64,000 nucleotides of DNA, taken from Gracilaria domingensis (lineage: Eukaryota; Rhodophyta; Florideophyceae; Gracilariales; Gracilariaceae). The number at the start of each line of letters is the position of its first letter. Within the stretch, counting starts at the first letter, position 1. The notes under the pieces were generated by a model. It was not told where the DNA came from and made no database searches. It worked only from the letters and a program-made list of their open reading frames with translations. Made by a program: the position numbers and the translations under genes. The stretch lies in assembly GCA_022539475.1 (NCBI GenBank), contig VCMS01000009.1:436137-500136 (forward strand). The letters are read 5' to 3'. Below are positions 7,682-29,571 of the stretch, piece after piece.

Positions 7682-8098
7682 CCCTACAAGAAATTTTTTC
7701 ATTTTTGTGATTGCAAATGGAGTGCATCTTTCGAGGTGCTTAGCCTCCAAATGCAGTGCGCCTGTACGCCATCCGCGTTCCAATGTGACCACTCTTGGCA
7801 GGGCATTTAATTTTTTAATAGTTTATTTCATTGTTGTGAGTGCGCGTGGAGTGCAAACTGAAATCGTGGGAGGCGAAGTGCGGACAATGTGGGCGCAGAT
7901 GGAGTGCAACATGTATCGCGTGCACTCCAAGTGCGCTGCATGTGCTTCGCGGGGGTCCTCCAATGTGACACTGCGAAATTAGGCTGCAATCGCACATTGA
8001 TCGCACTCAATGCGCCATCCGTTTGGCATCCATGTATCATCCATTGGTGGCATCCAACCTCAAATTGCGCTCCCCTTTTCCAAAAATTTCTCATAGGG
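7682..8098 (+). mobile_element. MITE, family 1 (417 bp), TSD TAA
   Basis: The ends are CCCTACAAGAAATTTTT and AAATTTCTCATAGGG, with a perfect 3-bp target duplication TAA (7679-7681 and 8099-8101). Inside, the octamer GGAGTGCA or its complement occurs at least four times, like the subterminal repeats that bind CACTA transposases. No coding capacity. Other full copies lie at 13056-13473, 14123-14539, and two nested inside 40010-41245. Confidence 0.93.
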
Positions 8099-9131: not shown

Positions 9132-11584
9132 CTAAGCTAAAAGGCGGCGCATAACCCCGGCTTCGGGAAGGGGAGCACCGCTTTCTTCCCCGTTTTCTAT
9201 GTTGCAGAACGCCAACTCGATAGTCACTTCCGTAAAGGCCGCCTCATCGTTCACCTCCTCATTCGTCGTGTCGATGTTGGGGTCCATATCAAAGTATGAA
9301 CCGAAACCATCGGTTTCAATGACAATTGTTGAAGGCTGTGGTGGTTGTGTTTGGATTGCGGGGCCTTCAGGACCGTCCAGGGCAGGGGTTTCAACGGCAA
9401 CAGTGGCAGTCACTCTTGAAGCAGTTCTACTGCTTCGTCGGCTCTGGGAGGACAATGCGCGGTTAAACGCGCAGAAAATCATTTTTTCTACTTTGACGGG
9501 GTGACGCCTGTTCTGTGAGGGTTTTCTTATCCTGCCCTGGAGACCAAAACTCCTTTCCAAATTAGAAGATGGAGGACTCACCAACAAAATGCGGAGAGCA
9601 AAGTCTCGTAGCCACACATTTCTCGTAAACTGCATCTAATAAAGAACAGGAATGTTCTTGAACGCCATTAATGCTTCTCTTTCGGCCGGATTATCCGCTT
9701 GAGCCCTTCATGATAGTATCGTGTAACTGAACTCTTCGAACAAACGGTGCACAGCACCATCAATACCTCCGGAGCTCGGGAGTTTTTGCGTGGGAGGGAA
9801 TACATCGGATGTTACATACGCTCTCATATGCCTCAAGACATGCATGTTGTACTCTGTGGCTTCCTCGTTTAAGCTTCGAATGTCTAAGCAATATACGACA
9901 AAGTGGATAGAGGTCAGTAAGGGTATTTTTCTTGACTCGTTCTTCATGCGATCGCGAAAACATGTGACAACCTACTCTCGTCGCTCTGAGGTAAAAAAAA
10001 GAGTTAGGGGAGCGCTAGGAGTTCTCGCTCGAGCTGCTTGGTGGCTGGGTAGACTTCTGAGATAACAGAACTGTCATCATCAAAAATACGAAGGTATTGG
10101 CGCATGAGACGAAAGATAGAGTAAATGTCCAAACACTTGTCAAACACAGAGTTGTCACGAATAGTTGCTTCAAAATAGTCTCTTCGTTGAGCGTTTCTGT
10201 TGCTTTATAAGTTCTTACGGAAGTCAGGGCAGTCCACCAATTTGTGATAAACAGGCTTACCCCTGATGAAAGAATGCAACATTCCCTCCGAACTTGCGAA
10301 ACGCGTAGCCGCCATCTTCATTGGCAAAACTGCCGTTCTAATCAGAACCACTCTGCCATAGGAATCTACTTCCCGGTCACTTCCCACGTATCCTGCATTG
10401 CGTAGATTGATATTGTATTGATCCATAAGCTGCTTAAAACGAAAATAGAATTTCGAGTGTTTTCGGAGGTCATTGACTACACCTGATACTGTAGAAAGAA
10501 TATCACTTACCCACTGCAGCTCGCCTACGTCCTGCATAAGTAAGTTCGCGACATGTGTCTGGTCTTGACCGGAAAGAACGTGGCTGTGTTTCCGTACAAT
10601 TTTCTCTTTCGCCTTGACACAGGATGTGATATTGTCGCTAACCACCCCACTGATTCGCACGATGTCCCCAAAGTCGCGAAAACCCGTTTCTACACTATCG
10701 GCGTAAAGTGCAGAGTCGCAGCTGCTGGAGCGTGTGTAGACGGATCTCAAGAAGTAAGTGACTCTCGAGCGATTTACGCCTGTAATTGTAAGCAGCACGT
10801 TAACGATATTTTCGGAGTTTGCGTCGGTCCACCCGTCAAATATAAGCGTTCCATATGTTCGTCTTAGAGCAGAAGAGATCGCTGACTTAACCATGTTAAA
10901 ATTCCTTTGATAATATCCTTCGATATTCTTCGTTTCCATTCTAGCGATTGTAGGAACATGACGCTCAAAGCGTGGGTCCAAAAGTTTGACGATTTGAAAC
11001 AATTCGTTTTCTCCCTCCCTTCTACTGAGTACGTTAAACGGTAGCATGTAATTAACAACAAACTGCGTTAGTAAATCATGCAGCCGCGACACTTTCCTAG
11101 CGAATTCTTTGTAGGCATTCTCTACTTTCGGCACAGCTTCATTGCTCTGATCTCTACTGGTGCCAGACGTAAATGGTCTGGAAGTCTGGTTAGGGCAAAT
11201 CTCAAGGCGTTCCTTCACCGGTGTTACCGGAACGCCGTAGCACTCCGATTCTGAACCAAGCTTTCGATACGCGCGCTGCAGTGCGGGCGACTTGAGTAGT
11301 CTAGATAGTGTCTCGGCGGAGATAAAGTCACATTGTAGAAGATGTCGTCCCAATTGGGTGGCGTTCTGCGTCTCAGCCTTAGTGTGCCACACGCAGCCAT
11401 TGCAGGTGGCGTAAAAGTTTTCAGCTATAGCTGTCGGATCAGTGTCTTGCTGGAGTGAGAAACATTCTGTGGGCCACCAACTTCGTTTGCGCCCTACTTT
11501 TCGCAAGGTCGAAGACTGCGATTGATGATTAACTGAAAGGTTTTGAGTTGACATTTGAAATCGATTAGACGCAGGACCAGACAC
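9132..11584 (-). pseudogene. hAT-family transposase, degenerate
   Basis: The 459-codon N-terminal part (11584-10205) has a BED-like zinc finger (CNGCVWH...GRHLLQC, roughly residues 60-90). A DUF659-like RNase H portion follows (TLIFDGWTDANSENIV, then GVVSDNITSC) with the start of the insertion domain. After frame breaks, the 9947-9708 stretch carries more of the core (FVVYCLDIRSLNEEATEYN). The 9635-9132 stretch carries the C-terminal dimerisation region (LLVSPPSSNLERSFG). The central catalytic Glu region is fragmented. hAT transposases cut and paste with 8-bp target duplications. I could not find the terminal repeats by eye. Confidence 0.85.
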
Positions 11585-12577
11585 CTGTGGCGGGAAAAAA
11601 GTGGAACAAATCTCTGGTTTGCGAGCTTGCTGTGGAAGTCAAGGTGAAGCTTTGCAGTTTGTGTGAGCGACCAGTGTGAGAGCTGGTTGAGCGCGCTGAA
11701 CCATATAGAACCTTACTGAGAAGCTTGCAAATGGCTGCGGGTGGCGCGGCATCGAGGCAGTCCGACGCTTTTCAGAAGAGGAAGACTACGATAAAGGAGC
11801 AGAAAGTGCGCCAGTGCTGCTTACCGGTCATGGGCGAGAGTCGCTGGAGTGGCAGGAGAGCAAAGGCGCGCAAATTGTTTCGTATAAACTTTGTTGGAGC
11901 TGCTTTTTTCCTTACTGTTTTCTTGCGTTTATGGGGCGCGTATGAAGGGAGCGCAAACGTTCTCACGCCGCTGGTCCTTGTAGGACTGGAAGTCCATTCT
12001 TGGATGTTTGATTGCACTACGTGGCTGTTCTACATTGTTTCCTTGTAAGAATCTCCTGCTGGTCTTCAGTATGCAATGCATACCTCGAAAATGACGTCAA
12101 CCTGCTTCACACGTTGAATACTATTCCTCGTGTCGCAACCGCCGTCACGTATGGAACGGACGACGGTAACGCGCAATAAATTTTCTCCACGGCCAATAAG
12201 TTTATTGAAGTTGTGTTTCGCTGCTACACATGTACCATCATTGGCTACTCCTCGGTAACGTCATCCAAGGCTACCTCCTGTACGTAGGCAGCGTACTATA
12301 CTACATATCCCTTCGCTCAATGTTTACCGTCTTAAATATTTTGAACCGATGACGTCGGAGCAACAGTTATAGTCCGTTCAGCCTTGCATCCAAACGTTTA
12401 CGGCCCCCTTGCTAGCGTGCGACACGCGTTCTGGGTCCCAAGATATTTTCCTGAGCTTTAAATGTTCTGGTGTATATGTCAACCCCGTAGGTAACATCAT
12501 CGAGATCAACTAGCTTTGCTCGGTGCAAAACAACAGCTTTGAGCGAAAGACTTTTCAGGAATGGCGTCCGCAGGTCT
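11585..12577. other. Intergenic, nothing recognised
   Basis: This stretch separates the hAT remnant from the truncated methyltransferase copy. A 107-codon plus-strand ORF at 11725-12048 has a possible membrane segment (FVGAAFFLTVFLRLWGAY) but no recognisable family and is probably fortuitous. No repeat structure was identified. Confidence 0.35.
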
Positions 12578-12581
12578 GTCA

Positions 12582-13935
12582 AAAATTTCTTAGCCACTAT
12601 TCGGAGGTTTTTATCGCATTCATCGCTCAAGGTCTCCACCGATCCACTATTACTGCTCTGTGACACATCCTGTGTGTTGAATCGAGTACTCTGGCTTGGC
12701 GGGGCATAACTAGACTCCCATGTCTCAAGCGCTGTATCCTTCAACGTCTGCATATTCATGTAAATTTATGGTTTCTCCATGTGCTGAAGGTTCGTATATC
12801 CAAGATGAGCCGCAAAAAAACTCCATGACCTACGACCTCACTGATAGCAGATCCCAATCGATCACAGTTGTCTTTGGAGAACGACGTAAAAGTGGGTATG
12901 TACACAGATGGTTCATGGTTCACTTTTCGTTTCTGTTTCGGTTGTTTCTTTTTTATCATTCTGATGTAGTCGGTCTCTCCCATTATGTGGCCGAAATATG
13001 ATAAGTATATAACGACCTCAAATGGGTTCACAGCTGTTGGCGGGATAAACACTGTCCGTTAGAAAAATTTTTGGAAAAAGGGGAGTGCAATTTGAGGTTG
13101 GATGCCACCAATGGATGATACATGGATGCCAAACGGATGGCGCATTGAGTGCGATCAATGTACGATTGTAGCCTAATTTCGCAGTGTCACATTGGAGGAC
13201 CACCGCTAAGCACATGGTGCGCACTTGGAGTGCACGCGATACATGTTGCACTCCATCTGCGCCCACATTGTCCGCACTTCGCTCCCGACGATCTCAGTTT
13301 GCACTCCACGCTCACTCACAATAATGAAATAAACTATTAAAAAATTAAATTGCCCTGCCAAGAGTGTCACATTGGAACGCGAATGGCGTACAGGCGTATT
13401 GCAGTTGGAGGCTAAACACCATGAAAGGTGCACTCCATTTGCACTCACAAAAATGAAAAAATTCCTCGTAGGGTGTCGTCTTCAGAACTTGCTTTTTCCT
13501 GGTCATGAAATAACCAACCAGGCATCGCACCGGTAGGTATATACCCATATCCATAGAGAGAAGGAAATAATCGCGGAGTCTCTGGTCCTCATCCCCGTCC
13601 TTCTTGTCAAGAAGCTTCGTTACAAGATATCGTTGCTCCACAGGTTTGTTATTCACAACACTCTTTCGCTGCTGTTGCAGTGTCATGTTCTGCAGGTTCT
13701 TGGAGTTAGTGGCCTGCTCAAACATTTTCCTTGCCTCCGGAATATCCTTATTGTTCTCGGCGCAGAACTCTATGAGCTCTCTAAAGCCGACGTTCCGTGG
13801 CCGATCATGCCCTCCATGGCTGTTTGCTAGCGCATCGCGAAGAACCAAGAAAAGTCTGACATATGCATGGAACGCCGGAGGCGGAGCACTCATGTCGATA
13901 GGATGTATCTCCTCTCCATCATCGGTAGAATTCAT
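12582..13935 (-). pseudogene. Truncated 5' copy of the methyltransferase-SET gene
   Basis: It encodes the first about 210 residues of the protein found complete at 52676-49573. The N terminus (MNSTDDGEEIHPIDMSAPPP) is followed by the conserved block through ETLSDECD and FLTDL, where homology stops at about 12582. A family 1 MITE at 13056-13473 splits it. Upstream of the MITE the frame is open and continuous through LRDYFLLSMDMGIYLP, exactly where the longer copy has a 1-base deletion. The catalytic methyltransferase and SET regions are absent, so this is a dead fragment. Confidence 0.9.
13056..13473 (-). mobile_element. MITE, family 1 (418 bp) inside the truncated methyltransferase copy, TSD TGT
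   Basis: Flanked by TGT (13053-13055 and 13474-13476). The homologous position in the complete gene (near 52215) reads AACACTGTCGTC without insertion, an empty site with a single TGT, so both boundaries and the 3-bp duplication are certain. It lies in reverse orientation to the copy at 7682. Confidence 0.96.
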
Positions 13936-13954
13936 CGCTTCAGCGCAAACAACG

Positions 13955-14035
13955 GAGGCGAGCCTTTAAATGGAGATTTAGGCTGGACAATCCCGCTCTC
14001 GGCAGCTCCTCCCAGCGCACTGCTAGTCTCGTCCA
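13955..14035 (-). promoter_or_regulatory. Shared leader, copy upstream of the truncated methyltransferase gene
   Basis: This is the degenerate third copy of a leader also found upstream of the complete methyltransferase-SET gene (52689-52768) and of the ParB-dioxygenase gene (18099-18182). Recognisable pieces on the plus strand are GGAGGCGAGC and CTCCCAGCGCACTGC. Confidence 0.75.
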
Positions 14036-14122
14036 TGTCCATGTCTGCTCGCTTCTGAGGTCAGCATCCGTGCTGCTTTGAGCGAGTGCGATAGCGTCGC
14101 GTGTCGGTCACGTCGCGATTCG

Positions 14123-14539
14123 CTCTATAAGAAATTTTTGGAAAAAGGGGAGTGCAAATTGAGGTTGGATGGCACCAATGGATGATACTTGGATGCCAAG
14201 CGGATGGCGCATTGAGTCTGATCAATGTGCAATTGCAGCTTAATTTCGCTGTGTCACATTGGAGGACGCCCGCGAAACACATGGAGCGCACTTGGAGTGC
14301 ACGCGATTCATGTTTCACTCCATCTGCGCCCACGTTGTCCGCACTTCGCCCCCCACGATCTCAATTTGCACTCCATGCGCACTCACAATAATGAAATAAA
14401 CTATTAAAAAATTAAAATGCCCTGCCGTGGGTGTCACATTGGAACGCGGATGGCGTATAGGCGGAGTGCAGTTGGAGGCCAAACACCCCGAAAGATGCAC
14501 CCCATTTGCACTCACAAAAATGAAAAAATTCTTGTAGGA
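14123..14539 (-). mobile_element. MITE, family 1 (417 bp), TSD TCG
   Basis: The termini CTCTATAAGAAATTTTT and CTTGTAGGA are slightly mutated. Target duplication TCG lies at 14120-14122 and 14540-14542. The corresponding place at 52862 is uninterrupted in the other copy of this region. It is in the same orientation as the 13056 copy. Confidence 0.9.
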
Positions 14540-14667
14540 TCGTAGTTAATGAAAAGCTCTCGTATGGTGCTAACAGTCGCGGATCAAGTGGGTGCGAAGT
14601 CCTAGTTTTGTGTAGTTGGATATCTCTGCACGGCGAGTCTAGCAAAATCAACACGGGAAGTGCCAGG

Positions 14668-15695
14668 TGTAGAGCAAAACTCTGCGATAAGCGCAGAGGG
14701 GAATCTCCACTGGGATGTTCGAGTCCTACTCCCTATGAGAAATAGACTTAGCGATAGAACCCTCTGTCCTTACTCCAGTCGAGGAACAAGCCCGGTGTAG
14801 GACCGGAGACTTCGGTGACTGGCTATACCTACAGAGGTGGGATGCAATAAAGGATGCAGATCCAGAGATGGAGTGTCATCCGAACCTGAACAAAGGGGGA
14901 AAAAAGGGGATCGTGTGAACGGGGAAACGCTCACGGTAGAAACCACAGGAGCAGAGCTACGGACCGTGTCAAGCGGCGGGAACAGGTCCTACAGCGGACC
15001 GACGCACTCACAGGTGTCAGAAATAAAAACAATACTGGGACGGAAGCGATACCTGAACCAGGTGAGCAAGTGTAAACAACAAGACTCAACCGAGTGACAA
15101 CAACAAGAATCAACAAAACGAACAAAACAAGAAACAACAAGAGACAACCGACACAGAGGTAAAAACAATCAAATATCCAAAGATGGCGAGACAAGTGCTT
15201 CCTAAGTGACCCTGAGGGGTACTACTAGTAGTAGTGCCGATACCAGTCCTGGATACTCTCCTGAGGGAGTCTTAGACCTACGTAGGCAGAAAGCTACTAT
15301 AGTCCGATCCTGAACAGGATTCGACTTGAGTGTCGACTCAGTTGTCCATTTACTTGGAGGCTGCAGGGTTAGATCACCCAAGCATATATACTACTACTAT
15401 GTCTACGGTGCACATCTCCCGAGGGTTCTATACGTGGACAACCCACTGTCAGGAGGTGGAGTAATTCCCAGCGGGCGTGGCACAACTATCCGCAGGCCAA
15501 CCTCCACACGTGGCCAAGTATTCCATTTACTATACACTTCCTACAGAGGATTCAGCTCTCAAGGCTCCGTTAAACCCTCCAAAAATTGCCCAAAATTAAA
15601 TGGATTTTTCACAACTTCGCCAAGTCACCGGCCATCGGTACCATCTCATTATGAGCGACATGATGCATCCGATGTCGGAAAGCCATTGCTCCACA
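14668..15695 (+). mobile_element. Solo LTR-like element (1028 bp)
   Basis: Starts TGTAGAGCAA and ends TTGCTCCACA, giving short inverted TG...CA termini, with an imperfect 5-bp duplication (CCAGG and CGAGG). It shares internal landmarks with the insertions at 20083 and 26406: TATACCTACAGAGGTG, a purine-rich AAC-repeat stretch, and CACTGTCAGG near the 3' end. There are no open genes. It splits foldback element A from its left edge; the homologous site at 52988 is empty. TG...CA ends with 5-bp duplications point to LTR integration, with the internal region lost by recombination. Confidence 0.85.
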
Positions 15696-15700
15696 CGAGG

Positions 15701-16035
15701 GGGTGTGCTTTAGGAGGTCTCCGGATGGTGCCAAAATGTGTCCAGAACGTGCCCGCGTGAGGAAGGGGGGTCGGTTGGGTTAGGGTGTGTAGCCCAACAC
15801 AACCGGAGCCCCCGCCCGCGGCTAGCTTTTGGCCAAGTTTTTGAAAAATGTGCGATTTTATGCCTGCGAGCGGAGGGGCGGGGGAGTCTGGTTGTGTTAG
15901 GGTACGCACCCTAACACAACCGACTCCCCGCCCCCCCCTTTCACTCGCGGGCACGTTCTGGCTACATTTTGACGCCCTCCCGGGACCTCCGAAGACACAC
16001 CCCCCAGCACTTCCCGCACCTACCGCGTCACCTCA
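15701..16035. repeat. Foldback element A
   Basis: This long quasi-palindrome has arms containing GGAGGTCTCCGGATGGTGCC and the complementary GGGACCTCCGAAG-like sequence, plus the CCAGAACGTGCCCGC and GGGCACGTTCTGG pair. Two 32-bp hairpins lie inside, at 15773-15804 and 15890-15921, each built on GTGTTAGGGT and its complement. A GATTTTATGCC segment lies between them. It is homologous to 52977-53305. Confidence 0.85.
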
Positions 16036-16460
16036 CCGCACCAACCCGTCTTCTCTACCCTCCATACTTTCCCTAATCTCCATGCGATGAAAATAAGAGG
16101 AGAGGGTGGCGTCGACTGTCAAGGATGGGGGGGACTCCACGCATCCTGCGCCGTGTTCGACGACGGCGGCTGAGGCACTGGATGCGCGGCTGATGGCGAT
16201 GGCATGCCGCCGCCGGCGCATCTTAAATTAAGAGCTCCATCGATAAGGGTCTTGTATAGTCTATTGGGAAGCTATTAAACAACATATATCTATCAGTAAA
16301 GTAATCTTTACGTCAGTCATTGACTGCACGGGACGCACCTCCATCCAAAGCCGAAAGTTCGTCACGCACATCGAGCCCATCCAAGGGCCGCCACTGTGCT
16401 CGCCAGCGACCGCGCGGAACAACAGCCTCACTCCAAGGCCACCACACCAAGCGCCGCTGA
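16036..16460. repeat. Duplicated non-coding block (paired with 53306-53755)
   Basis: The block matches the right-hand copy along its length, for example GTCACCTCACCGCACCA, CCGCTGTGCTCGCCAGCGAC-like and CGCTGACA near the end. No coding potential is seen. It separates the two foldbacks. Confidence 0.7.
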
Positions 16461-17440
16461 CAACATTTGTCTAATCTTATTCCGCTTCACACCCTTCCCT
16501 ACGTGCTCTCCTTCTCGTCGTATCACCTTTGTGTCACACACAAAAAATGTCACAGTTCCTAGCCTCTATCGCAGCCTCGCTTGCTTCCGGGGATTCTCTC
16601 CTGGGACACCTCCCTCGCGCGTCGCCAGTCATCCCACAGAACTCTCTCACGGGCAGCTGCCAAAAGCAGATCACAGTCTCCTCCGCCCACCTCACCTCGT
16701 GCAACATGCTGCATTCTAGTACTATTCTAGTACTCCCCGAGAGGTGAATTGATGTCCGGATGGTATCCCCCAGATAACCCATATCAGAATTACGAAACCT
16801 GAAGATTTCCATTTGATATCCTTTAGATGTCAATATGATATACGTAAATGATGCTCAGATGATGCATGAAGTATATCCAAATGATAACCGCCTGATATGC
16901 ATAGGATGTACGAAGAGATGTCCATTGGATTTCGTGATGTTCAAATGATGCACCATGGATTTCCGGACATCCATTGGACATATCTTCGTGCATCACATGA
17001 ATATCTATGGAACAGTTTTTGTACATCCGAAGCACATGTAAAGGGCATCAATTTGACGTATCCAACGAGATAGCACGGCATATCATTCCGATATCCTGGA
17101 TGCGCAGAAGATATCCAACTGATATGTTATAGTTGTCCCAAGTTTTCATCTGATGGACATCCATTGCGCCTCACTTTATCTCACTGGGACTGCTCTGCTG
17201 TTGAATGCCATGTTGCAAAATTGCAACTGCCTGATGCATATCCTGCCGGAGGCTTTGATCAAGACAGCAATGCGGACTACTGTAGCAGGCTACTCAGCAA
17301 ACAGAGTAGTACCCTCCTCGCTGAGTAACCCTCTCAGTCTACGATTGAGTAGTTTACATCCCTGCGGCAGTCTGTAGAACACGTGGAAACCACTCAACGG
17401 TACAAATTCGGTAACTGAGTCAGTGAATTATAGCACCTCG
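16461..17440. other. Insertion absent from the right-hand copy, GATATCC-rich
   Basis: The homologous right-hand block jumps directly across this point, so about 980 bp is an insertion here or a deletion there. From about 16740 to 17160 it is unusually rich in ATCC, GATAT and TGATG words in both orientations, like a decayed short-motif array. I found no gene, no clear terminal repeats and no target duplication. Confidence 0.5.
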
Positions 17441-17544
17441 GAAGGGATGTGGTGATCACAAAGAGGGTAGGTGTGGTGTGCGTGGAGATTAAGGAAAGTT
17501 TAGAGCGTGGAGACGACGGATTGGTGCCGTGAGATGACGCGGTG

Positions 17545-17890
17545 GGTGCGGAAAGTGCCGAGGGGTGTGTTTTGGGAAGTCTCCGGATGGTGCCGAAATG
17601 TGGCCAGAACGTGCCCGCAGGCCGGGCGTGGGGGGTCGGTTGCGTTAGAGTGGGTACCCCAACACAACCGAAACCCCCTCCCATGGGCATAAAATCGCAC
17701 AATTTTCAAAAAATCGGCCAAAACGTGCCCGCGGGCGCCTGGGGCCGGTTGTGTTAGAGTAGCCACCTTAACACAACCAACCCCCGCCCCCCATCCCCCC
17801 CACGCCGCCCGCGGGCACGTTCTGGCTACCTTTCTGGCACCATCCGGAGACCTCCCAAAACACATCTCCGTGGCACTTCCCGTGGTGATT
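17545..17890. repeat. Foldback element B
   Basis: A second quasi-palindrome of the same family has outer arms GGAAGTCTCCGGATGGTGCC and GGCACCATCCGGAGACC. Inner hairpins lie at 17638-17669 and 17747-17778. It is homologous to 53826-54150. Its outer flank is the inverted form of the outer flank of foldback A, so A and B together form a larger palindrome-like pair. Confidence 0.85.
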
Positions 17891-18098
17891 TTGCTACACC
17901 CGCCCGCCGGTACGTTGGCGCCACTGTCCACGTATATTGGCGGGAGGGTGCTGTACATGAATGAGTGTACTCTTGACTACTATGCTAGTAGGAGTACTTG
18001 AAGATCACGAGTAGAGAGCGCGGCCATTGCTCGCGTGACTCATCGTTGCGTGTACTCCATGACTCGAAAGCATACAATCAGCGAGCGAGCGGCCACGA

Positions 18099-18182
18099 AC
18101 TGGACACGGACGAGACTGGCAGTGCGCTGGGAGGAGCTACCGAAAGCAGGGGTGCCCAGCGTAAACGCTCGCCTCCGTTCTT
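18099..18182 (+). promoter_or_regulatory. Shared leader upstream of the ParB-dioxygenase gene
   Basis: This stretch (including ACACGGACGAGACTGGCAGT and GCCCAGCGTAA) is nearly identical, in the sense direction, to the segment upstream of the methyltransferase-SET gene (52768-52689, minus strand). It ends about 140 bp before the proposed ATG at 18323. Sharing of a leader by two otherwise unrelated genes suggests a common promoter module or descent within one mobile unit. Confidence 0.8.
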
Positions 18183-18322
18183 GTATCTTCCAGAGCGAGC
18201 GTATTGCGGATCTACACCTTTCACTGCAATAGCTGTTCAACGTGAAGCCGACTCGTGTTCGAAGGCGTACGCAAAGCGTGACTCCTCGCACACGGCGGAG
18301 CACTCGATAACTGGAAGGTGGA

Positions 18323-21300
18323 ATGCTGGTTTCTCTGCAGATGGATATTGAGAACGTAGGAAAGGTGATAGTCGGGGAAGCGGTGTTGCATGGAATTGGA
18401 AGTGATCTACGCCGCGAGTTAAACGGGAAGCAATTAGACCCAGGTCTTGTGGTGGTTCACAATATTCTCATCAGTCGAATCGGTCAGACATTCTAAAGTT
18501 ACCGTACAGAGGGCCTGGATCTTCCACAATACATCCAGGATCTCCGTACGGCCGCTTCTTGGGGTAAGAAAATGATGGAACCGGTGGCAGCAAGCATTCC
18601 AGCGTCCAAGCAACGAGCGGTGAGCGCTCTGAGTGAGGTGATGACGCCGACAAGCCGCAAGGAGCCAACTCGAAGTTCATCGACACCGAGAGGTAGCGCA
18701 TCAATAGCACCTCCGCGGGCCGGTCCATCGTCTGTTACGAAGCAGACTATGGAGACGAGATCATTCCCAGCTACGAAGCGGACAGGCCGAACAAAGTCTA
18801 CCTCCGCTACTAAGCCCACTGGGTTCAGAAGGGCATGTCCTGGGATGAATCAGACCGTCGACGCAAGGGGATCTTCTGCGTCGAAACAGACGGTTCAGCA
18901 TGGGACGGCTGTGAAAGAAGAAGAAGATGAGATCATAAAAGGTGCTCTCCCAGACGCGGATGTGCAATCCACACAAGGAGCTGGTCCATCTGTACCCCAA
19001 ACTGCACCACAAACTGCGGAACAGCAGGAAGATGACGTTGTGCTTCAGTCCGCAAGAATACTACGTTCAAGTGTTTCTGTCGAGCGGTCTGGAACACCAG
19101 GGACACCTACTCGGAGCGAGAAGTACAGACGAATTCGTCAGAAGGTCCTAAAGGTGAACCTCAATCACTACCGGATGGTTGTTGTCACTGTTGACATCAC
19201 TCTCCTGGACACTCCGTCCAATTTACTCCGTGGAGTAAGAAAACGCCACGTTGAAGCACTTGTGAAGAGTATGGAGGACCGGGGTATATTGTAGTCGATA
19301 GTTTCTCCAGTGGTGGCCTTACAAGATGATACTACGGGAGAGAAGGAAACTGACAAGGGACGCGTAACGAAGAAGTGCTTCATTGTGGGTGGTTCGCATC
19401 GTCTGAAAGCTTTAAAATATTTGGCAGCGACTGGTGCACCGAAGTGGAACAGATAAGCGAAGTTTTAGAATTTCAATCTGCTGATACGAGGAGATGGGAG
19501 TCCCATTGGAATGAAGGAATTGTTATTTGTTGCTCGTACCTCAATGAGTCGACGAGTGCCATGCGAAGGATGATGTTTGCAGACAAGATACACTCTATAG
19601 TTAGTGCGGCCTCCATTCTAATTGAAAATGTTGAGGGGGTGACGCTGGCAGACGTGGATCCCGCAGAAGTGACAGAAGTGTTGAAGGAGAGCCAACTGAT
19701 TGGGACTGTGCAAAAGCGTCAGTATCTGAGATATGCCAATGTCTCCCTGCAACTCATGTCTCGTGAGGGAATGCTGGCCTATGTCGAGGATATATGTGAG
19801 AGTGTGAGTGACATAGGTCTCACACATCTGTCTCATACTCTGCAATATGTTTTGAATGCCGAGGGGTTTTCCTTCATTCTTGACTGTCTTCAGATCTTTC
19901 TATTGAAGAACAAGTCGACGAAAACAAAGCAATGGAAAAGCTTTGAGGAGGTTCGAGGTTTCTTTTATGATAGAGCAGTGTCTATGTCCCGCGCGGCTCG
20001 AGCAGTGAGGAATGAACTGAACGAGGAAGAGTCGATGAAAGTGTTTCTTAAACGCGAATTCAGTTTTTCTGCTCCATCGAATTGTGGGGCAAACTCGGAG
20101 GAGTGAAACCCACCAGACTGTCCGAAGGTCCGCTCTCGTGAGAGATGGCAGACCAGTGACAGAGCCCTCTGTACCACCGTAACTCGGTTGTAAGGCCGAA
20201 GTGGCAACTGGATATACCTACAGAGGTGCTAGGCCACGTCGTGAGGAAAAGATGAGAAACTCCAGGGATGGGGTGGTATCGGCAACGATGAAACACGACC
20301 AACGATAGGTGTCGTCTCGAGAGGGAAAGCAACAGAAAACAACAACCAAACAACACCGACACGCGACGGGTAGGGCCTCCTCGGCACTGTGCCAGGAGCG
20401 GGGCGAGATCCTCCAACGGTAATGCACGGATTTCCATAAACACGGCAAAACTCTATACAGAGTCGGATCACTTCGTAATCTAGTCCTATAGATCCTCGGT
20501 ACGACCCTCAGGTCCTGACATCAACGAAAGATGTTCCTCAAAGATACCGAGAGGGTAGGACCACCGTAACCAGACGTGGCTATACTCGCGAGAGTGATAA
20601 CCCACGTAGGCGGTTGGCGCCAGAGCCTCACTCGTATAGAGTCCACTCAGGAGAGCGCTACTCGACAAAGAGTTCACGTAGAAGTGCTCGGGTTGACTTT
20701 ACGAAGGTGCTCGCGACGACGAGGTCGAGCTCACCTAAGTAGGTCTAAACTAACTATGTACACGTGGTGCACACCCGCAGGGGCCCGTACATGTGGCTAG
20801 CCCAGTGTCAGGCACCTCAGATGCAGTACCTATTGTCCCGTAATATGCACACACACGGTGGTGTCGTACACGCGTCCACCTAGCGGTATTGGCCAGCAAT
20901 GGCAATCCTGATTACAGGTAACTGTGGGAAAGCCATTCCAAAAGTAACGGCCAAAATTGGGTCCAACTCATAATTCTTCGAGTGCATCCTCCTATACTCA
21001 TCCCCTGAGTATATGAGTCGCATCATCCTGATAACCACGCAAATTGCGTTGCTCTACAGGAATGAAGATGACATTGAAGACCCAGACAACAATGCAGCTG
21101 TGTATCAGTTCCTTTTGGGACCATTTGTGAACTACAATACATTGCCGCGTGTTCGGAGCAGGAAAAACTCAATTAGAACTGCCACGACTTCCGTTCAGAA
21201 TCGATTACGGACGATGCTCAAGGTAATTCCGCCCCACGCACCAGTGCAGCAGTGCGTGACGAAGAGGAGGACTCCCGCTGCTGCTGCTGCAACATCTGCC

Positions 21301-23139
21301 AGTGAAGAAGGGGAGCCGCGAAGAAGTGCACGAGAACGGGCGCAGGTGAGTTCTAGGGAAATTGAGCACGGCCGAAATCGAGGTGCCATAGAAGTTCTGG
21401 ATAGCTCTGAAGATGAACAGAAGGCTCCGCCGAAGAAGAAACAGAGAAAGACTTTCACACAACAGATGAGATCCACTCTGAACAGCATGACACCGGATGA
21501 CCTGATGTCACAACTGAATGAACATGTGCCGAGAGGGAAGTGGATGAATGTTCAGTTTGTGGCATTGGAAGAGGGAGGGAATGCAGAGAACGAAGGCAGT
21601 TCTACATTTGTGGATGACGAAGAGCTTCTTACTGTCACAGTTCCACGGGTTGTCACGCTCGAGAAAGATGCTGAGCCAGACGATCAGCAAGAGCCAGATT
21701 GGGGGTCATTTGATGAAGAGTTACGTACAGCTCTTCCGGAATCTGAGAAGCACGGACTTGTTCGAGGAGACGCTGATGATGGCTCACCGAACCCATCATG
21801 GTGCGGATATGTGAGGCTGAGGCCGCAGGAATGGCAAGGGAAGAACGTCATTGAGCACAAGAACCCCTGGCTCAGAGTCATTCACTCGCCGAAGGCACAT
21901 AGGTCGGAGCTGCTAAGTGTCTCTGGTCTCAGAGATGTACACCATCTTGTGTTTTGGCACGCTGCAATCGCTGAACATCGCCTACGGGCGGAGACATTTG
22001 GTATTCAGTATCCTCGTACTCGTCCGACAGGTATGGATGATGAAGAGATGCTTTGGGTGGCTGCGAAGGAGCATGACAAATTTGGGCAAATGTTCTTCGC
22101 CCGAATGAAAGCTGAGCTAAGGCAGAATGAATTTTGCGTGCTTGGTGGCTTTGCGACGGATAATGGTGTCCCTAAATGGGATGAGTTGGAAGAAGTTCGG
22201 GAGTTCCGAGATGTGTCAGGGAAGTTGATGGACTTCTTGGAGAATGAATATGAAGCGATGCGGGATATGCGTAAAGAGACGGAACAGAAGTCATTTCTTC
22301 AAATCATCAACGATGGTGAAGGATGGAAGAACGGGAGCGATGGACCATTTGAGGGGAGAGTGATGTCGACACGTTGGGGTACGGTGAAGAAGCCGGAGGA
22401 TAATGAGGACCTCAGGTGGGTTGTAAGGTCGCGTGGTTTACTTGATGTTCGAATGGGTACAATTGCTGCGGCTTTGAGACTATGGTACAATGAAAGGGAA
22501 GCTGTGAAGATGTACACTCCGAAAACTGGTGGTCGATTTCTGGGGACCACGAGGAAGTGCAAGCGCCAGACGCTGCACATCGACTTCAGTGGTCTGGTTA
22601 CGAAGGAAAAAATGAATACTGGTAACCCCAGATACTTTGTAATGCCCTCTGGGAGAGAGAGATTTCCTCTCTGGGTGAGCGCTGGAAGCTATCAACTGGT
22701 GGGGATGAACAACCAACAGTTGCGACTGATGTCAGAGGTGTATCCAGCGAAGAAGATAATCATCCCACAGTACTCTATATTTTTGGGCCGTGGTGATGTG
22801 ACACATGCTGGAGCAAGTGGGAGGGACAAGGTGGATAGGCCTGAGTGCATGGATTTGCTGGTTAGATACCACATGTATATGGTGCCAGAGGGCTACGCAC
22901 TACCTGATGCAGTTAATCGGGTACGGGATTTCCGACCCACGTTTGTCAATGGTGACGAGGAGGAGGAGGCAGAGGATTAACTGTTGTCCGATAAGGAGGG
23001 TGGGGTGGTTGACATGGAAGAAGACCAAGTGGTCGTGGAGATTGGTGTGGAAGCGGAGGCCGTTAGAACCGAAGTGCTCGAGAGCAGTAGTGATGACGAT
23101 TTGCCAATAATGAGGCTGCGAGCGCCTCGAACTGGATGA
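18323..23139 (+). pseudogene. Gene A, left arm: ParB-like plus 2OG-Fe(II) dioxygenase-like protein, broken
   Basis: From ATG 18323 the frame encodes a short N-terminal segment and a Ser/Thr/Pro-rich linker. A ParB/sulfiredoxin-type domain follows (FIVGGSHRLKALKYLAATG near 19380), then a helical region, a basic/acidic linker (about 21240-21700) and a dioxygenase-like domain. That domain has HIDF near 22580, THAGA near 22803 and Arg in VRYHMYM, fitting an HxD...H iron site with a 2OG-binding Arg. Lesions: TAA 18494, TAG 19292 (the right arm has CAG), frame breaks near 19460, a solo LTR at 20083-21058, and TAA 22978 where the right arm reads GAA. Beyond that stop the frame stays open to 23139, giving an acidic tail. 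The dioxygenase part is continuous from 21060. Confidence 0.85.
20083..21058 (+). mobile_element. Solo LTR-like element (976 bp) in gene A
   Basis: Termini TGTGGGGCAA and TTGCTCTACA. The flanking 5 bp are CGAAT and GGAAT (one mismatch). The right-arm copy of the gene is uninterrupted here and its coding frame is continuous, giving an empty site. It contains the family landmarks TATACCTACAGAGGTG and CAGTGTCAGG. Confidence 0.9.
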
Positions 23140-23474
23140 AGTGATTAGTAAATTATGAGTGTCTTGCGATTATTAAGAATAGAATATTGTTGTAAGGCTA
23201 TACATATGAACATGGAAAGGGTGCGTCAGGCTGGTAATTGAACAAATGTCATATGTCTTTCGTCCGGTTGCGTCTAATTGGAACATGCTCGGTATCGCTG
23301 ACATCATTGGTGGCACCACTGGTATAGCATTCATTATCGCAATTGAACATGAAGCGTTCTACCACTTCTAAAACTGCACTTAGGGGTGGTTTCAAAAGAA
23401 GTATGAAGATGAGATGTCCATGCAGTACCTGCCTATGAGGGACTTGTGGCAGTATGGTGACTGTATAAGGAAAA
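23140..23474. other. Intergenic between genes A and B (left arm)
   Basis: AT-rich spacer, conserved in the right arm at about 60304-60639. No motif beyond general AT-richness was identified. It probably carries the 3' end of A and the promoter of B. Confidence 0.4.
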
Positions 23475-24310
23475 ATGGCAGAGGAACAGAGCGACTTGGC
23501 GGAAATTTCACCCAATACCTTGTCTAAGTTCATATATGCAAATGGTTACGGTATATTAAGTTCTGTTGATCGAACGTTGAGAAAAGAGGGAGAGTCAATT
23601 CCAGAAGAAGTTGTGAAGTGTATGAAGTTCATTGACGAACGCGATGGTTTCGGTCTTGTTACAGGTCGTGATTTGGCGACGTGGAGGGGAAAATGGAAGG
23701 ACTCGGATACTATAAGCTTGGTGTGTCGGCGAATCATGGAGCTTTACTCCGTTTCTCTGACGACAGAGAAATTAAGGCTACATTCAATGCCCAGACCCTT
23801 GATCACAGTGTTGACGGACTACTGCTCCTGGCAAGGGATTTGAATAGGAGACATGGTATTGCGGATGATGATGAGAAGGGTTTCGTGGATACCAGAAGTG
23901 ATAGTGGCCTTCCCAATTTCGTGTACAACAAAGTGTGGCAGTGGAGAGAAGAAGTGGATTCTGCTATTGAGGACGTGTTGCAGAAGATGGATACGTTTGG
24001 TATCTATCCCGGCGATAAAAGTTGCAAAATTGTTGACAAGCGATACACAAAAAGAAGCAGAGGATCAAATCTTGTGGATAGTGAACCGAGATTGGTTGAT
24101 ACGGATGACGTTGTGACCTTCGGAAGTGCTTTGAGCGATGGTCCTTTGCATCAGGTAGGCGTGTACGGCGTTCACGTCAAAGAAGAGTGTATCCCGCGTG
24201 GAGTAGACAACCTGTTCGAAAGCGTGGAGGATGTACATTCGACAATTATGCTGGTGGCTCTGTTGTACGGCTACGAAGAAATGCAGCACGATAAGAAACA
24301 CCAAGAATGA
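23475..24310 (+). pseudogene. Gene B, left arm: HAD-superfamily phosphatase-like, frameshifted
   Basis: The layout is that of HAD hydrolases of the trehalose-6-phosphate phosphatase/Cof type. A motif I strand (YGILSSVDRTL), a cap region (SANHGA, SGLPNFVYNK) and a late acidic motif (TFGSALSDGPLHQVGVYGVHV) are present. The first Asp of DxDGT is Ser, so the phosphoryl-accepting nucleophile is missing in both arms. A 1-base deletion near 23670, absent in the right arm, breaks this copy. Gene B is a paralogue of gene C, which retains DxDGT. If ever expressed it would be a pseudo-phosphatase, perhaps regulatory. Confidence 0.75.
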
Positions 24311-24369
24311 GAAAAGGGTATTGAGATATATACGGTCCTTTTATAACTGAGATCTCATATCCTAAATAA

Positions 24370-25362
24370 CTAAATATTACGGGCATCATAGCACTTGAAA
24401 CAAATTCCAAGAGCATTTCTGAACCATTTACAGTTGATTTTTCTGTACTGGTACAGTTCTGCCACCCTTCTGATGGTCTCATTCACGCCCTCCACCCCAT
24501 CAACAAGATATGTTACCGCTGCTGGAGAATAGTCTCCCTTTACATGAACTGCCAGGGTTACCATTTCATATAGAAGACCATCATTGGAAGCATTCCCAAA
24601 AGCAACGATTAAATGTGTTTCGAACTGGGGGTCGTTTTCAACCAAGGCCAGCGCCCCACTGCTTTTCGTGAAACGAATGTCCCCTATTTCACAGTTTTTA
24701 TCTTGATGGTACCCAACCAGGTTCGGAAAGGATATCAACAGTTTTGAAATACCGGAGTTAACTTCTGTTTTCCACTTCGACAGTCCATTGTATGTGCAGT
24801 TAGGGAGTCCACTGTCTTTTCTAGTGCTCAAAACTGCTTGTTGACGCTCCTCGTGAAGTCCGTGCGATTCATTTAAGGAGACTGCAAGTCTCTCAAGTTT
24901 GGCTGCACATCTTTCGTAGCCTTCCCTGTCAAGCTCTTGATCAATTTCAGTGCCATTGGATAATCGCACCCGTGCGCCTTGGTTTCCAGAGATACCAAAA
25001 TTGTAGCCACCCAGGTGCTCTATGACACTCCCGACATCCTCTATATCTCGCCTAGTAGCAATTCCGAAACCAACGCGTGCATTGATGTACTTCATGCATT
25101 TGACTGTTTCGGCAGGAATGATGTCTTCAGCTCTTTCCACAGTACCGTCAATATCACTAATCACGGCGTAGCCATTTTCGAATATTTCGTTAGCCAGCTG
25201 CTGAGGAGTTACTTCTTGTGATCTAATTTCTGAGTTATGCATGTTTTGAAAGCTTTCGAAAGGGTTCGTTTTCCAAATAGATGTGTGTATACGAATGAGA
25301 AGGATGTGATTGATGTTCACAAGGTGTTTCGTAGTATAAAAAGAGTCTAAGAACGACCACAT
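24370..25362 (-). CDS. Gene C, left arm: HAD-superfamily (TPP/Cof-like) phosphatase
   Basis: An open 330-codon frame. Motif I is AVISDIDGTVE with both aspartates. Motif II is GIATRRD, where the right arm keeps the usual ATGRD. The cap region includes GISGNQGARVRL. The metal-binding motif is VAFGNASNDGLLYEM, resembling GD..ND in Cof-type enzymes. The family removes phosphate from sugar phosphates such as trehalose-6-phosphate; the substrate here is unknown. The true start may be the internal Met of QNMHNSE (about 25242), because the first Met is not conserved in the right arm. It converges on gene B, with 60 bp between the stops. TGR to TRR may impair activity. Confidence 0.75.
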   Translation of the reverse strand: MWSFLDSFYTTKHLVNINHILLIRIHTSIWKTNPFESFQNMHNSEIRSQEVTPQQLANEIFENGYAVISDIDGTVERAEDIIPAETVKCMKYINARVGFGIATRRDIEDVGSVIEHLGGYNFGISGNQGARVRLSNGTEIDQELDREGYERCAAKLERLAVSLNESHGLHEERQQAVLSTRKDSGLPNCTYNGLSKWKTEVNSGISKLLISFPNLVGYHQDKNCEIGDIRFTKSSGALALVENDPQFETHLIVAFGNASNDGLLYEMVTLAVHVKGDYSPAAVTYLVDGVEGVNETIRRVAELYQYRKINCKWFRNALGICFKCYDARNI

Positions 25363-25890
25363 ACGGGTATTGTAGTACTGTTTTAAAACGTTACTAGGAC
25401 GAGAAGCTTTCGCATCGATTTGCAGTACAGAAAGGGAGATTTAGTCATAAATTATATGCACGGGTTCAAGTGGTAAAGAAAACTATGAATATCTTTAACA
25501 TGAGCTTAGAAATCAAGGAGAGTAAAACGACCTCGATTAGAGGTTGAAACCCATAAAAAGTTTACCTTACTTCATATGGGCGCCCAAAGTATATTGCAAA
25601 GGCTTACTTCTTCAGAAATATTAAAATTTTGTACTTCTTTCGTTACTAGTATCCTGAACGTTAATGATATGGTATGACCCTTTTCTATCTAGCAAAAACT
25701 TAGCCAGGTATTAGTGGTAAAGGATGTAGGTTTTAAAAGGGCATATTTGAAGCGCAGAAAGACGAACAGTATAAGTAATGTAATACGAGCAGGTCATTTA
25801 GATAAAGTATATTTTATGTTTAACTATCTTTAAAAACTTCGTCTGCACATCAATGATGTCTAGAACACCGAAAAGTCATGTGTTCCAACC
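25363..25890. other. AT-rich intergenic between genes C and D (left arm)
   Basis: No gene. The segment is AT-rich and conserved in inverted orientation at about 57945-58462. It contains the upstream region of gene C and the 3' flank of gene D. Confidence 0.4.
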
Positions 25891-27748
25891 TCAAAGCTGC
25901 GGGAATGGGGAGGGGGATAACTTTTCCTCAACAACTTTGACGTAGTTTTTATAAGAAGGAAAGGTGTCACCGCCTACGATGCTTCTTTCTTGGCGGAAAA
26001 AGTAGTAGAAGTACGCGTTCCTAAACGCAAAGTCGGAGAAAGAAATAGGGAAGCCGACGAGAGTTTTCTCATATGCAAGAAGTCGCCCAACGGTCTCTTT
26101 TAGGTTGAAAGTAGTACCTGTCTTAAGCGAAACTATCTTCAACAGCTCTTTCATTATTGTGACCACCACCGTACTGCATTTCGTAGCGACTACGTCCATA
26201 GGAATGAAACCTTTTGAGGCCCCGAAGATGTTGAATGCTGACAGCCACACGAGCTTCTCATAATAGCTTACGAGATATGTGTCTTCGTCGACAACCCCGC
26301 AAGTGAGACTCATAGATCTAAATCTGTCTGCAACGTTGGAGGCCCACTTTCCTGTTGCGACAGTGAGACCATCCGGACTTTGAGGAGTGACACGATCCTG
26401 CGGAGTGTGGTGCAAGCCCGGAAACGGGAAACACGCACAGGACGTTCGAGATCCTGCTCCCTGTCGGGATGGAAGCTCGGCTGGAGAGCCTATGTTGCCA
26501 CCGAGGACCTGGATGTAAAGCCAGTAGTAGGCTGAAGTAGAACCTACAGAGGTGAAATAGAGAAGCCAGAAAGGTAAGAAAACCCAGAAATAATGGGAAA
26601 ATGGTAGAGAAACTCGAGAGAGTGGACTGTAGACTCCGAGAGGAGGCGTAGCCCGAAAAGGAAAAGTCGAAGAAAAGATCCAGAAAAGAGGAGTCAAGGG
26701 CCGTGCGCAAGCAGGCAACAGGCCCAAAAGACGGGGAAAACCAGAAAGAAAAGGGAAACAATAACAAGAAACACACCGAATACTGGGTCGGATATCTATC
26801 CTGCAATCAGGAATAAGAAACAAACAAGAATCAACACATCAGCGTGTAATACAGATGTTCTGTGGCGTCCCTGAGGCCAGTAGGTGTGGTTATACCTCTT
26901 GAGCTCACTCTCCACATGAAGTCGTAGACCGGTAAGGGCAGCAACGCCTAGAGCCATGACAAAAGTGCTCTCGAACGAAAAAGTAGTCTCGAAGACGAAC
27001 CTCAGTTTACTCTACTGAGTGCGCGCGACGGCGAGGTCGCGCCCATCGAAGTAGGTTCAACTTCACATTAAACTAACAATATAAACTAAAGTATTGCACA
27101 CCTCATGAGGTCCATACACGTGGCTAACCCACTGTCAGGGTGTCTAGAGAGGTGGTGCAGTAGCTAAAAACTAGACACTATCCATGACCATGCAATGTTT
27201 CCAAGACCGACTTTACATGACAAGGTTCACCAGAAATATCAACAACATTACCCGAGTAGTAGGGGCTAGTCTCGACGAGAACAAGACTTCATCCTAGAGA
27301 GAGCGCTATCCTAAGCAGGCTCGGAAGTACCCGTGAGGGGTGGGTTTGCTCCACACGGAGCTGCGTTTCTTGAGGGGACGCCAAGGTAGAGGACAACTTT
27401 GGAACAATTTTCCACACCAAGATTCGAAAGCAATGCTGTGATGTCTCCGTTCTGGAAGAAAACGAGATTCTCTCTGAGCGAATAAGGGCAAGCCTGAATT
27501 ACGGTCTTCAGTGTGTTCGTTCTTCCACAAACTAGTATCGGTACATCAGAAAGATGAGAGGTAGCAGCCATGCTGCAGAAGTCTTGTGCGGAAATCATCA
27601 TGTCTTCTTCGTTCGCCAGCATGGTACCTATACGACCCCTTCCAACAACAACGGCTCGAGTACTTCGAGTCGAAGATGAGGTCTGACGGATTTCAGAGTA
27701 CGTGGTACTCGGAGGCGGAGTTGGAGGCATGTCGGACTGGGAGTTCAT
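25891..27748 (-). pseudogene. Gene D, left arm: ketopantoate reductase-like, split by a solo LTR
   Basis: From Met 27748 (MNSQSDMPPTPPPS) a Pro/Ser-rich leader precedes a dinucleotide-binding motif (AVVVGRGRIGTML). Next come CGRTNTLK and FFQNGDI, as in the N-terminal domain of the ApbA/PanE (2-dehydropantoate 2-reductase) family. After the insertion, the C-terminal helical domain has YYEKLVWLSAFN, like the EK...N motif of that family. The coding sequence is cut at 26406-27355; the right arm joins RNAAP directly to QDRV. No early stop is seen in this arm otherwise. The reaction in the family is NADPH-dependent reduction of a 2-oxo acid; the substrate here is unproven. Confidence 0.7.
26406..27355 (+). 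mobile_element. Solo LTR-like element (950 bp) in gene D, TSD CGGAG
   Basis: Termini TGTGGTGCAA and TTTGCTCCACA, flanked by a perfect 5-bp duplication CGGAG (26401-26405 and 27356-27360). The right arm has the empty site with one copy. It shares CCTACAGAGGTG and CACTGTCAGG with the other two insertions and is in the same orientation. This is the cleanest member of the family. Confidence 0.93.
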
Positions 27749-28202
27749 CGCAAGTGTTCTACTGTTTTTGTGTGACGATGAAAATGAAAGATGGGGCGGA
27801 GAATTGCTGGGGTAAAGATTGATACTTAAGTACAAATGGTGGGTAAGCGCAGAACGCCAACATGACTCACCTTGTGAAAGTGAGCGAAATGTATGATATG
27901 TGATTGTACTAAATGAATGATACAGCTTGTATGAGACTACAAGCCACAAAGTGTGGTGATGTTTTATGAAAAGCAGGTGGAATAATAGAAACTTTACAAT
28001 GAATGAAACTGATTTCGAACCTGAGTTGTAAAGTAGTAGTTACGGAGAGCTTGAATACAGGATGAAAGGAGCCATTTTGGCTTCATAAATGACGTGAACG
28101 GGTTCTACAGCTTCACTCGAATTGCCATAATCTTCTTTTTTATTGAGGTATAAAAAGGGAGAATGTCTGGGAGGGACGCGTTTGGGGTTACTGAAGTTAT
28201 CG

Positions 28203-28910: not shown

Positions 28911-28982
28911 AGATAGTAGCATAAAATTATTGTTTATTGCTTTATTACCTTTATGTGTTATCACAACTGTATTCTCCGTCTC

Positions 28983-29320
28983 GATTAGAGATGTACTTCT
29001 CTTGTGTCACATCTGGGAAAGGATGTGAGAGAACATCAATATATCTCTAGTAGATGTTGAGAGGGAGGATGAACTACTCCACGTGCTATCATTATTACCG
29101 ATCCGGTGTCGAGTGGTGACATATTCCTTTTTTGTCACAACCCACACAGGATGTGACAGAAGAAGAAGATGCCCCCAGTTGAGACGGAGCGTGAGCTACT
29201 CTAAATACAATCACTACTCCCCAGCGTGCCTCCACTGGGGACATTTTCTTGTTTTGTCATAACCACAGAGTGAGGTTATGGCCGAAGAGAAAAATATCGC
29301 CGGTCGAGACGAGGTGGGTG
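28983..29320. repeat. Three tandem ~120-bp units with hairpins, between genes E and F
   Basis: The units start near 28983, 29108 and 29229. Each holds a short inverted repeat: TCACATC...GATGTGA, TCACAACC...GGATGTGA, CATAACC...GGTTATG. A similar GAGACGGAG or GAGACGAGG motif follows in the second and third units. Related units occur in the right arm (about 55925-56215). They lie in the promoter side of gene F and the 3' side of gene E. Function is unknown. Confidence 0.6.
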
Positions 29321-29571
29321 GGGCCCCCACCCACCTAGTCCGGGACTATGTGAGCGCGAAAGAGGGGACAGAGGGGTGGCGCTTAAATATTGGAAGGTGC
29401 GGAGGTGTACAGTAGATGTTTTGGCGAGAAATGCGATTAGGAAAACAGGAAAAATCGTGGTGCTGGATATAGCCCGTGCGAATGGAGAGTGCGGGTGGAC
29501 AACACAGCGTAACTCGATTGCACTGAATCGCAGCGAAACTTCCGATTCATCTATTACTTCTTCTTCTGAAG

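Follow-up and report, generated by a model that had tools for sequence, protein, structure and literature searches.

A pair of divergent genes in the red alga Gracilaria domingensis, one encoding a methyltransferase fused to a SET domain (MTase-SET) and the other a ParB-like domain joined to a 2-oxoglutarate (2OG)-Fe(II)-like domain (ParB-2OG), is part of a DNA transposon of ~22.6 kb with the ends CGTCTG...CAGACG. The pair was found in a stretch of 64 kb (here called the window) that is the final 64 kb of contig C9 (positions 436137-500136 of 500,136 bases); genome-wide searches covered the 77.9-Mb assembly of 680 contigs. Phycobilisome-linker matches, as expected of a red alga, are present on several large contigs and on C680; a frame of 878 aa on C680 contains three of them, and the DNA read from that contig has a plastid-like GC content of 28.5%. 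A preliminary description of the window had proposed that the two genes form one chromatin-modification unit, possibly transposon-borne. Their linkage, their shared leader sequence, and their location within a transposon support that proposal, but they are only 2 of about 10 genes, and the linked transposase and shared ends rule out a free-standing host module. The window thus samples a real, large, recently active Plavaka-type transposon family with unusual, epigenetic-looking accessory genes.

From the left end to the right, the element encodes a Plavaka transposase (+), open reading frame (ORF) ORF834 (-), and MTase-SET (-), followed by a control region and then ParB-2OG (+), the hydrolases HAD1 (+) and HAD2 (-), an ORF of 415 amino acids (aa) (-), a ribulose-phosphate epimerase (+), and a coiled-coil-like ORF (+). 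This order is a composite of the window and contigs C296, C329, C34, and C591, with no one copy read from end to end. The C591 transposase matched Pfam family PF18759 with an E value of 1e-18 and a score of 68.1 bits, compared with a cut-off of 26.3. It has CHRC at residue 466 (a C2C pattern) and HLLDH at residue 744 (an H-3-H pattern), each the sole match to its pattern. Motifs of the forms C(2)C and H(3-4)H are features of the CMCT clade, according to the accessible text of PMC12730594.

The ends of the element are short inverted repeats. Fifteen places share the right terminus and 16 share the left one, each with a flanking sequence of its own. One left end (C57) reads CAGAGG, and one right end, in the window, reads GAGACG. 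Seventeen copies were inspected, 10 with two ends and 7 with one. Seven of the two-ended copies span 22.4 to 23.4 kb, and the other three span 13.4, 13.9, and 19.0 kb. The termini differ from the TGT..ACA of PlavakaA and the CATCA..TGATG of PlavakaB. Therefore, the element represents a Plavaka-like lineage that is neither PlavakaA nor PlavakaB.

The family is abundant. The assembly contains at least 122 matches to the transposase, at least 114 to HAD2, at least 72 to ORF834, and at least 66 to the 2OG domain, as well as at least 50 MTase-SET places. The element SET matches number at least 138, a count obtained from 150 SET matches by removing the 8 strongest, which are host-like, 3 on C382, and 1 on C3. 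The three on C382 (at 11387, 35738, and 111587) lie in frames of 1169 to 1170 aa and resemble a separate multicopy SET gene. At least 39 of the 138 element SET matches have a convergent transposase within 8 kb, and the spacing is 3832 to 3858 bp in 37 of these 39. The MTase-SET genes of C597 and C591 have no substitutions across 1054 codons, which suggests recent spread.

The two genes of the pair are repeatedly found together. For at least 14 of the 66 2OG matches, an MTase place is no more than 8 kb away; each of these pairs is divergent with a gap of 3.1 to 4.4 kb, and among the MTase places listed, the divergent arrangement was the only one seen within 8 kb of a 2OG match. With SET matches added, at least 18 of the 66 have a divergent partner. 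Twelve further 2OG matches were hand-picked from those that had no listed partner, and the upstream sequence was readable in 11. Six of the 11 had a divergent MTase, three had the transposase half of the element instead, and two (C62 and C51) had nothing recognizable. One of the six, on C325, had only 34% identity and no DNA match to other copies. This MTase-SET relative beside a 2OG copy (C325:26920-27720, L087) may represent a second, diverged family. Several 2OG matches are at contig ends, and therefore the true rate of linkage is uncertain. As the preliminary description anticipated, the genes co-occur in the genome and are not normally unlinked where this can be tested, with the partner counts being lower bounds and some copies having no partner. 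Intact copies of both genes are present elsewhere in the genome, and long open frames are retained in several copies (1055 aa for MTase-SET and ~1308 aa for ParB-2OG).

The window itself holds three partial copies (A, B, and C) of the element (Table 1). Copy A (12572-30968) is broken and has diverged. Copy B is the left half of the element, and copy C, an inverted right half, is inserted in the control region of copy B. The uninterrupted form of this insertion site is present in C296, C329, and C591. The arrangement initially described for copy A, with a leftward MTase-SET relative and a rightward ParB/2OG-like gene separated by foldbacks, was confirmed. However, the first gene, described as truncated, is a relative that retains just codons 1 to ~325 of 1055 and neither catalytic domain, and the ParB-dioxygenase gene is a pseudogene with six stops compared with an intact copy. 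The MTase-SET domains of the window are in copy B (49573-52706).

Both genes follow a near-identical leader of ~97 bp (95% identity in C296) that contains TATTTAAA and is promoter-like. The two leaders have opposite orientations, one on each side of the control region; in copy A they form the inverted pair 13977-14041 and 18101-18165. Between the genes is a near-perfect palindrome of 74 bp, present in four copies in C296 and in five each in C591 and C329, where some are partial in C329. The foldbacks of copy A have decayed yet can still be recognized, with 14 inverted pairs of at least 30 nucleotides within 13900-18600. The whole window has seven near-perfect palindromes with arms of at least 15, compared with 1, 0, 0, 0, and 0 in five simulated sequences. 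Four of the seven are in control regions, and just one of these (15890-15921) falls in the region covered by the preliminary description. A 20-bp core of the half-palindrome has 939 exact occurrences versus none for a reversed-pattern control, a genome-wide count that may include occurrences outside the element. Two more palindromes, at 42535-42620 close to the left end of copy B, are possibly transposase sites.

The MTase-SET protein of 1055 aa has an N6_N4_Mtase domain at residues 516-753 and a SET domain at 883-1042. In the L056 copy, the E value was 3.9e-15 for PF01555 and 1.4e-7 for PF00856, the latter over the whole profile; for copy B of the window, the values were 3.4e-9 and 4e-6. The methyltransferase also matched four solved chains, all of them adenine methyltransferases (two of DpnA and one each of CcrM and MboIIA). 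In L056, DPPF precedes DMFAGTFSTG, in keeping with the beta-class order of DPP[YFW] before an FxGxG-type motif. These matches uphold the earlier identification of a beta-class-like methyltransferase fused to SET, and the enzyme may be predicted to write N6-methyladenine (6mA). That the SET domain would act on a histone is the weakest step in the chain. A search of a protein collection with MTase-SET gave 5372 candidates, none at 1e-3.

In C591 (L043), a run of G following TTATTCG is one G shorter than in C597, which splits the methyltransferase and SET domains into frames of 813 and 304 aa. Short SET frames had at first been attributed to an internal methyltransferase deletion, a guess that was discarded because C591 shows this one-base difference instead. 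The difference may reflect slippage, a programmed frameshift, or an assembly error. Many SET matches are in frames of 253 or 304 aa, and therefore the split may be common.

The ParB-2OG protein of 1308 aa is less readily classified. Its ParB-like part gave weak PHROG matches (8.1e-4, 0.011, and 0.022) and has a DGLHR motif, presumably of the ParB type; there was no match in Pfam or NCBIfam. The other domain contains LHTDF, GRGDxxHA, and R[YF]H, and by this HxD...H...R motif it is designated 2OG-Fe(II)-like. The motif is invariant in nine copies of this genome. Among five aligned 2OG sequences, HxD is present in all five, the distal H in four (P0002 departs before it and keeps only the first motif), and the last R in three (P0001 has G in place of the final arginine). 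Relatives of 25 to 34% identity retain the motif, and a metagenome protein, P0003 (25%), keeps all three parts. Another relative is a G. domingensis hypothetical protein with 91% identity, or 97% over aligned columns. Residues 11-90 of P0003 align weakly (E 0.27), in the same order, to a helical stretch after the ParB-like domain, a hint that the fusion is older or present outside this genome.

Solved-structure searches with the 2OG and ParB parts gave no useful match. The 2OG part matched neither TET/JBP nor any other Pfam family up to an E value of 10. Among the families named in the preliminary description, N6_N4_Mtase and SET were recovered by profile searches, whereas ParB had only the weak PHROG matches and 2OG had no Pfam match. 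A viral origin was rejected because a search of a viral collection found no relatives of the 2OG alignment or of MTase-SET. A defense system was rejected also; the best 25 of 28 PADLOC families were type II/III or orphan methyltransferases, except for one PglX row.

In pairwise comparisons the ratio of nonsynonymous to synonymous substitution rates (dN/dS) was below 1 in most gene pairs of the element. MTase-SET had the lowest range, 0.30 to 0.46, and the values were 0.42 to 0.73 for HAD2, 0.48 to 0.56 for the coiled-coil-like ORF, 0.53 to 0.57 for the transposase, 0.70 to 0.74 for ORF834, and 0.74 for the 415-aa ORF. The epimerase value of 1.08 compares a whole gene with a truncated one and is therefore not meaningful. 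There are dead copies among the pairs, and thus the values understate constraint. For ORF834, searches of Pfam, NCBIfam, and PADLOC gave no family, and the PHROG matches were weak, with 0.0074 as the best E value. Identification of the 415-aa ORF by eye as a ketopantoate reductase was unsupported by Pfam, NCBIfam, or PHROGs. One set of copies has the complete epimerase, whereas in a second, large set only about the final 93 profile positions are left. The best-scoring epimerase match, C320:26901, may be the host gene.

Table 1. Features of the element copies in the window. The start and end of the copy A ParB-2OG gene were estimated by alignment with C296.
Feature	Position	Strand	Remarks
Copy A: MTase-SET remnant, N-terminal ~325 codons only	12572-14051	-	Interrupted by ~300-bp repeat
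Copy A: control region (decayed; contains foldbacks)	14052-18101	.	Palindrome near 15876-15922
Copy A: leader upstream of ParB-2OG gene	18102-18169	+	From leader comparison and inverted pairs
Copy A: ParB-like/2OG-like fusion pseudogene	18230-23140	+	ORFs 18497-19294, 19354-20106, 20974-22980
Copy A: HAD-IIB hydrolase 1	23672-24310	+	Aligned with copy C counterpart, which matches Pfam Hydrolase_3 (1.4e-4)
Copy A: HAD-IIB hydrolase 2	24370-25440	-	Hydrolase_3 4.8e-9; C34 copy HAD-SF-IIB 7.7e-11
Copy A: counterpart of C34 415-aa ORF	25891-28040	-	Interrupted; no family match
Copy A: ribulose-phosphate 3-epimerase gene	28131-28910	+	Whole; PF00834 2.2e-51
Copy A: coiled-coil-like ORF	29527-30501	+	Weak Pfam matches only
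Copy A: right terminus	30963-30968	+	GAGACG (CAGACG in other copies)
Copy B: left half (left terminus CGTCTG, transposase, ORF834, MTase-SET, control region)	42037-54255	+	Left terminus common to other contigs; interrupted in control region by copy C
Copy B: Plavaka transposase gene	43761-46903	+	Several broken ORFs; 1100-aa frame in C591
Copy B: ORF834, in pieces	46900-49500	-	No family match
Copy B: MTase-SET fusion gene	49573-52706	-	Split into two ORFs; frame of 1055 aa in C597 and L056
Copy B: 97-bp leader upstream of MTase-SET, with TATTTAAA	52692-52788	-	Inverted equivalent precedes ParB gene
Copy B: divergent control region	52977-54255	.	74-bp palindrome copies near 53075-53128, 53168-53239, 53917-53959, 54004-54053
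Copy C: inverted right half	54256-64000	-	Right terminus at 54256; runs to contig end
Copy C: coiled-coil-like ORF	54724-55752	-	
Copy C: epimerase remnant	56345-56617	-	
Copy C: HAD2	58343-59098	+	
Copy C: HAD1	59428-60423	-	
Copy C: ParB-2OG	60844-63999	-	

Other features of the window are a retroelement integrase with rve and zinc-binding domains (1061-2152), a DUF659 transposase-like ORF (10205-11638), and an interspersed repeat of ~300 bp at 7805-8089, 13065-13364, 14132-14431, and 40698-40997, one copy of which is within the MTase remnant of copy A and another directly beside it. The sole ARAGORN tRNA call in the window (tRNA-Phe, 10260-10347) is probably false because it is inside the DUF659 ORF and an Rfam search found no tRNA there. 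The flank of the left end at C218:145651 is the same control-region site in which copy C is inserted (54255-54256), with an AT overlap; either one site was struck twice or one nested insertion was copied.

We propose that the pair are accessory genes through which the transposon controls its own chromatin as a form of anti-silencing, with the ParB-like domain guided by the palindromes, a reading that we consider evenly balanced between right and wrong. The ParB-like domain would bind the 74-bp palindromes of the control region that the two genes share, returning the ParB-2OG protein to its own element, where the 2OG domain might oxidize a base or a histone mark. The MTase-SET protein would add a mark to adenine and perhaps another to a histone, and the two proteins jointly would maintain expression of the element or determine how strongly it is expressed. 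A more specific version, a self-targeting epigenetic switch, is unlikely as a whole: the ParB-like protein would bring an oxidizing enzyme to its own divergent promoter via the palindrome array, a near-identical promoter would drive MTase-SET as a double writer of DNA-adenine and histone marks, and writer and eraser would set the on/off state of the 22-kb element. Appealing as it is, the view of the pair as writer and eraser is still unproven.

Several findings weigh against self-encoded chromatin regulation. SET domains usually carry an NHS catalytic-core motif; here, IND is at that position, with the final YFDYGE kept (as judged by eye). A protein collection search with the ParB query gave 662 candidates, none at an E value of 10 or better, and the AlphaFold model of the 2OG part had a predicted local distance difference test (pLDDT) score of 28, with the model of the ParB part likewise failing. 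The dN/dS of ParB-2OG was 0.63 to 0.77, so that constraint is either weak or diluted by dead copies, and that of HAD1 was 0.57, with a second pair having replacement changes only (dN 0.011, dS 0). Some copies have no MTase or ParB gene or have stops. The element shows no CpG depletion hinting at past cytosine methylation and thus gives no pointer to a mark that would be counteracted. It is possible, although somewhat unlikely, that the element captured MTase-SET and ParB-2OG as passive cargo, as it would have done the epimerase and HAD genes, and that they have no part in its regulation. The ParB-2OG ratios fit such cargo, as do the presence of metabolic-type genes, an epimerase of which some copies are complete and many others truncated, and the red-algal EnSpm families of 16 to 20 kb with 4 to 5 ORFs reported in the accessible text of PMC6431247. 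However, the long open frames in several copies, the one promoter-like leader that both genes share, the repeat-rich control region between them, and the low dN/dS range of MTase-SET argue against passive capture.

Self-limiting regulation is known in transposons, and the proteins might instead repress the element, with MTase-SET writing a silencing mark that ParB-2OG modulates, thereby limiting copy number or rival elements. A captured N6_N4_MTase of bdelloid rotifers is reported to act against transposons, and a partnership with SETDB1 has been suggested (accessible text of PMC8885841). Repression is nevertheless quite improbable: the element is abundant, two copies on different contigs have no MTase-SET substitution, so that any limiting is ineffective, and a 2025 paper, in its accessible part, ties eukaryotic 6mA to permissive chromatin (PMC12695648). 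The ParB-like match and the array of long palindromes could also suggest a partition-like or replication system of a partly episomal element, but this is very improbable given that no ParA or replication gene was found among the ORFs scanned with Pfam and that the copies are within chromosomal contigs and have defined ends. A host gene cluster multiplied by segmental duplication, with no transposon involved, would be consistent with the inverted orientation of copies in the window and with the lack of a reproducible target-site duplication, which for Plavaka elements would be 2 to 3 bp: in the 10 two-ended copies there was a 2-bp match in three, a single base in three, none in four, and 3 bp in no copy. 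This explanation is extremely improbable, being largely refuted already by the shared ends, since the same termini occur at many sites with differing flanks, and also by the transposase and by insertion of the element in its own copies.

Each piece of the proposed self-regulation occurs separately in the literature. Transposons carrying TET/JBP genes include Plavaka elements, and SET-carrying HarbingerS and MuDR elements are known (accessible text of PMC12730594). The fungal TET/JBP transposons, including PlavakaB (Kojima 2025, PMC12730594), likewise combine a Plavaka-type transposase with a putative 2OG base-modifying enzyme in one element. In contrast, the dioxygenase of the algal element has no Tet_JBP match and shares its protein with a ParB-like domain, the termini are CGTCTG..CAGACG rather than CATCA..TGATG, and no MTase-SET is described in the part of that paper available. 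HarbingerS and the MuDR families of Phytophthora likewise encode SET (accessible text of PMC12730594), but they belong to other transposase superfamilies, whereas the transposase here is Plavaka and not Harbinger, and the SET domain is joined to a DNA methyltransferase. The giant EnSpm/CACTA elements of Chondrus crispus (16 to 20 kb, 4 to 5 ORFs; Kojima et al. 2013, via the accessible text of PMC6431247) are also giant, multi-ORF, of the same wide clade, and from a red alga; they may be the nearest relative, as far as size and ORF number allow a comparison. Plavaka giant repeats of Amoebidium carry tyrosine recombinases with matches in distant lineages, including red algae, and are highly methylated at 5-methylcytosine; MTase-SET and ParB-2OG are not mentioned in the accessible text (PMC11244446). 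VANC proteins bind repeated motifs in VANDAL transposons and offer an anti-silencing parallel in manner of working, a transposon protein acting with repeated short motifs in its own noncoding DNA; they are not known to be related, and, in the accessible text, their motif is a tandemly repeated 9-bp sequence rather than the 74-bp palindrome that is the candidate site here (PMC5735166). In the bdelloid N4CMT, too, an N6_N4_MTase captured from bacteria is joined to a chromatin domain, but in the accessible text this domain is a chromodomain instead of SET, and the gene belongs to the host instead of a transposon (PMC8885841).

The combination of transposon, MTase-SET, and ParB-2OG was not found described in the literature searched, with most subscription journals and Repbase Reports outside that scope, and among the titles listed that join red algae, adenine methylation, and transposons there was none on such an element. 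Transposons with single chromatin-modifying genes are known. This one would combine a DNA writer joined to a possible histone writer, a putative oxidase with a DNA-binding-like domain, and an array of candidate binding sites. The element opens a concrete test of how mobile DNA escapes or sets silencing in red algae.

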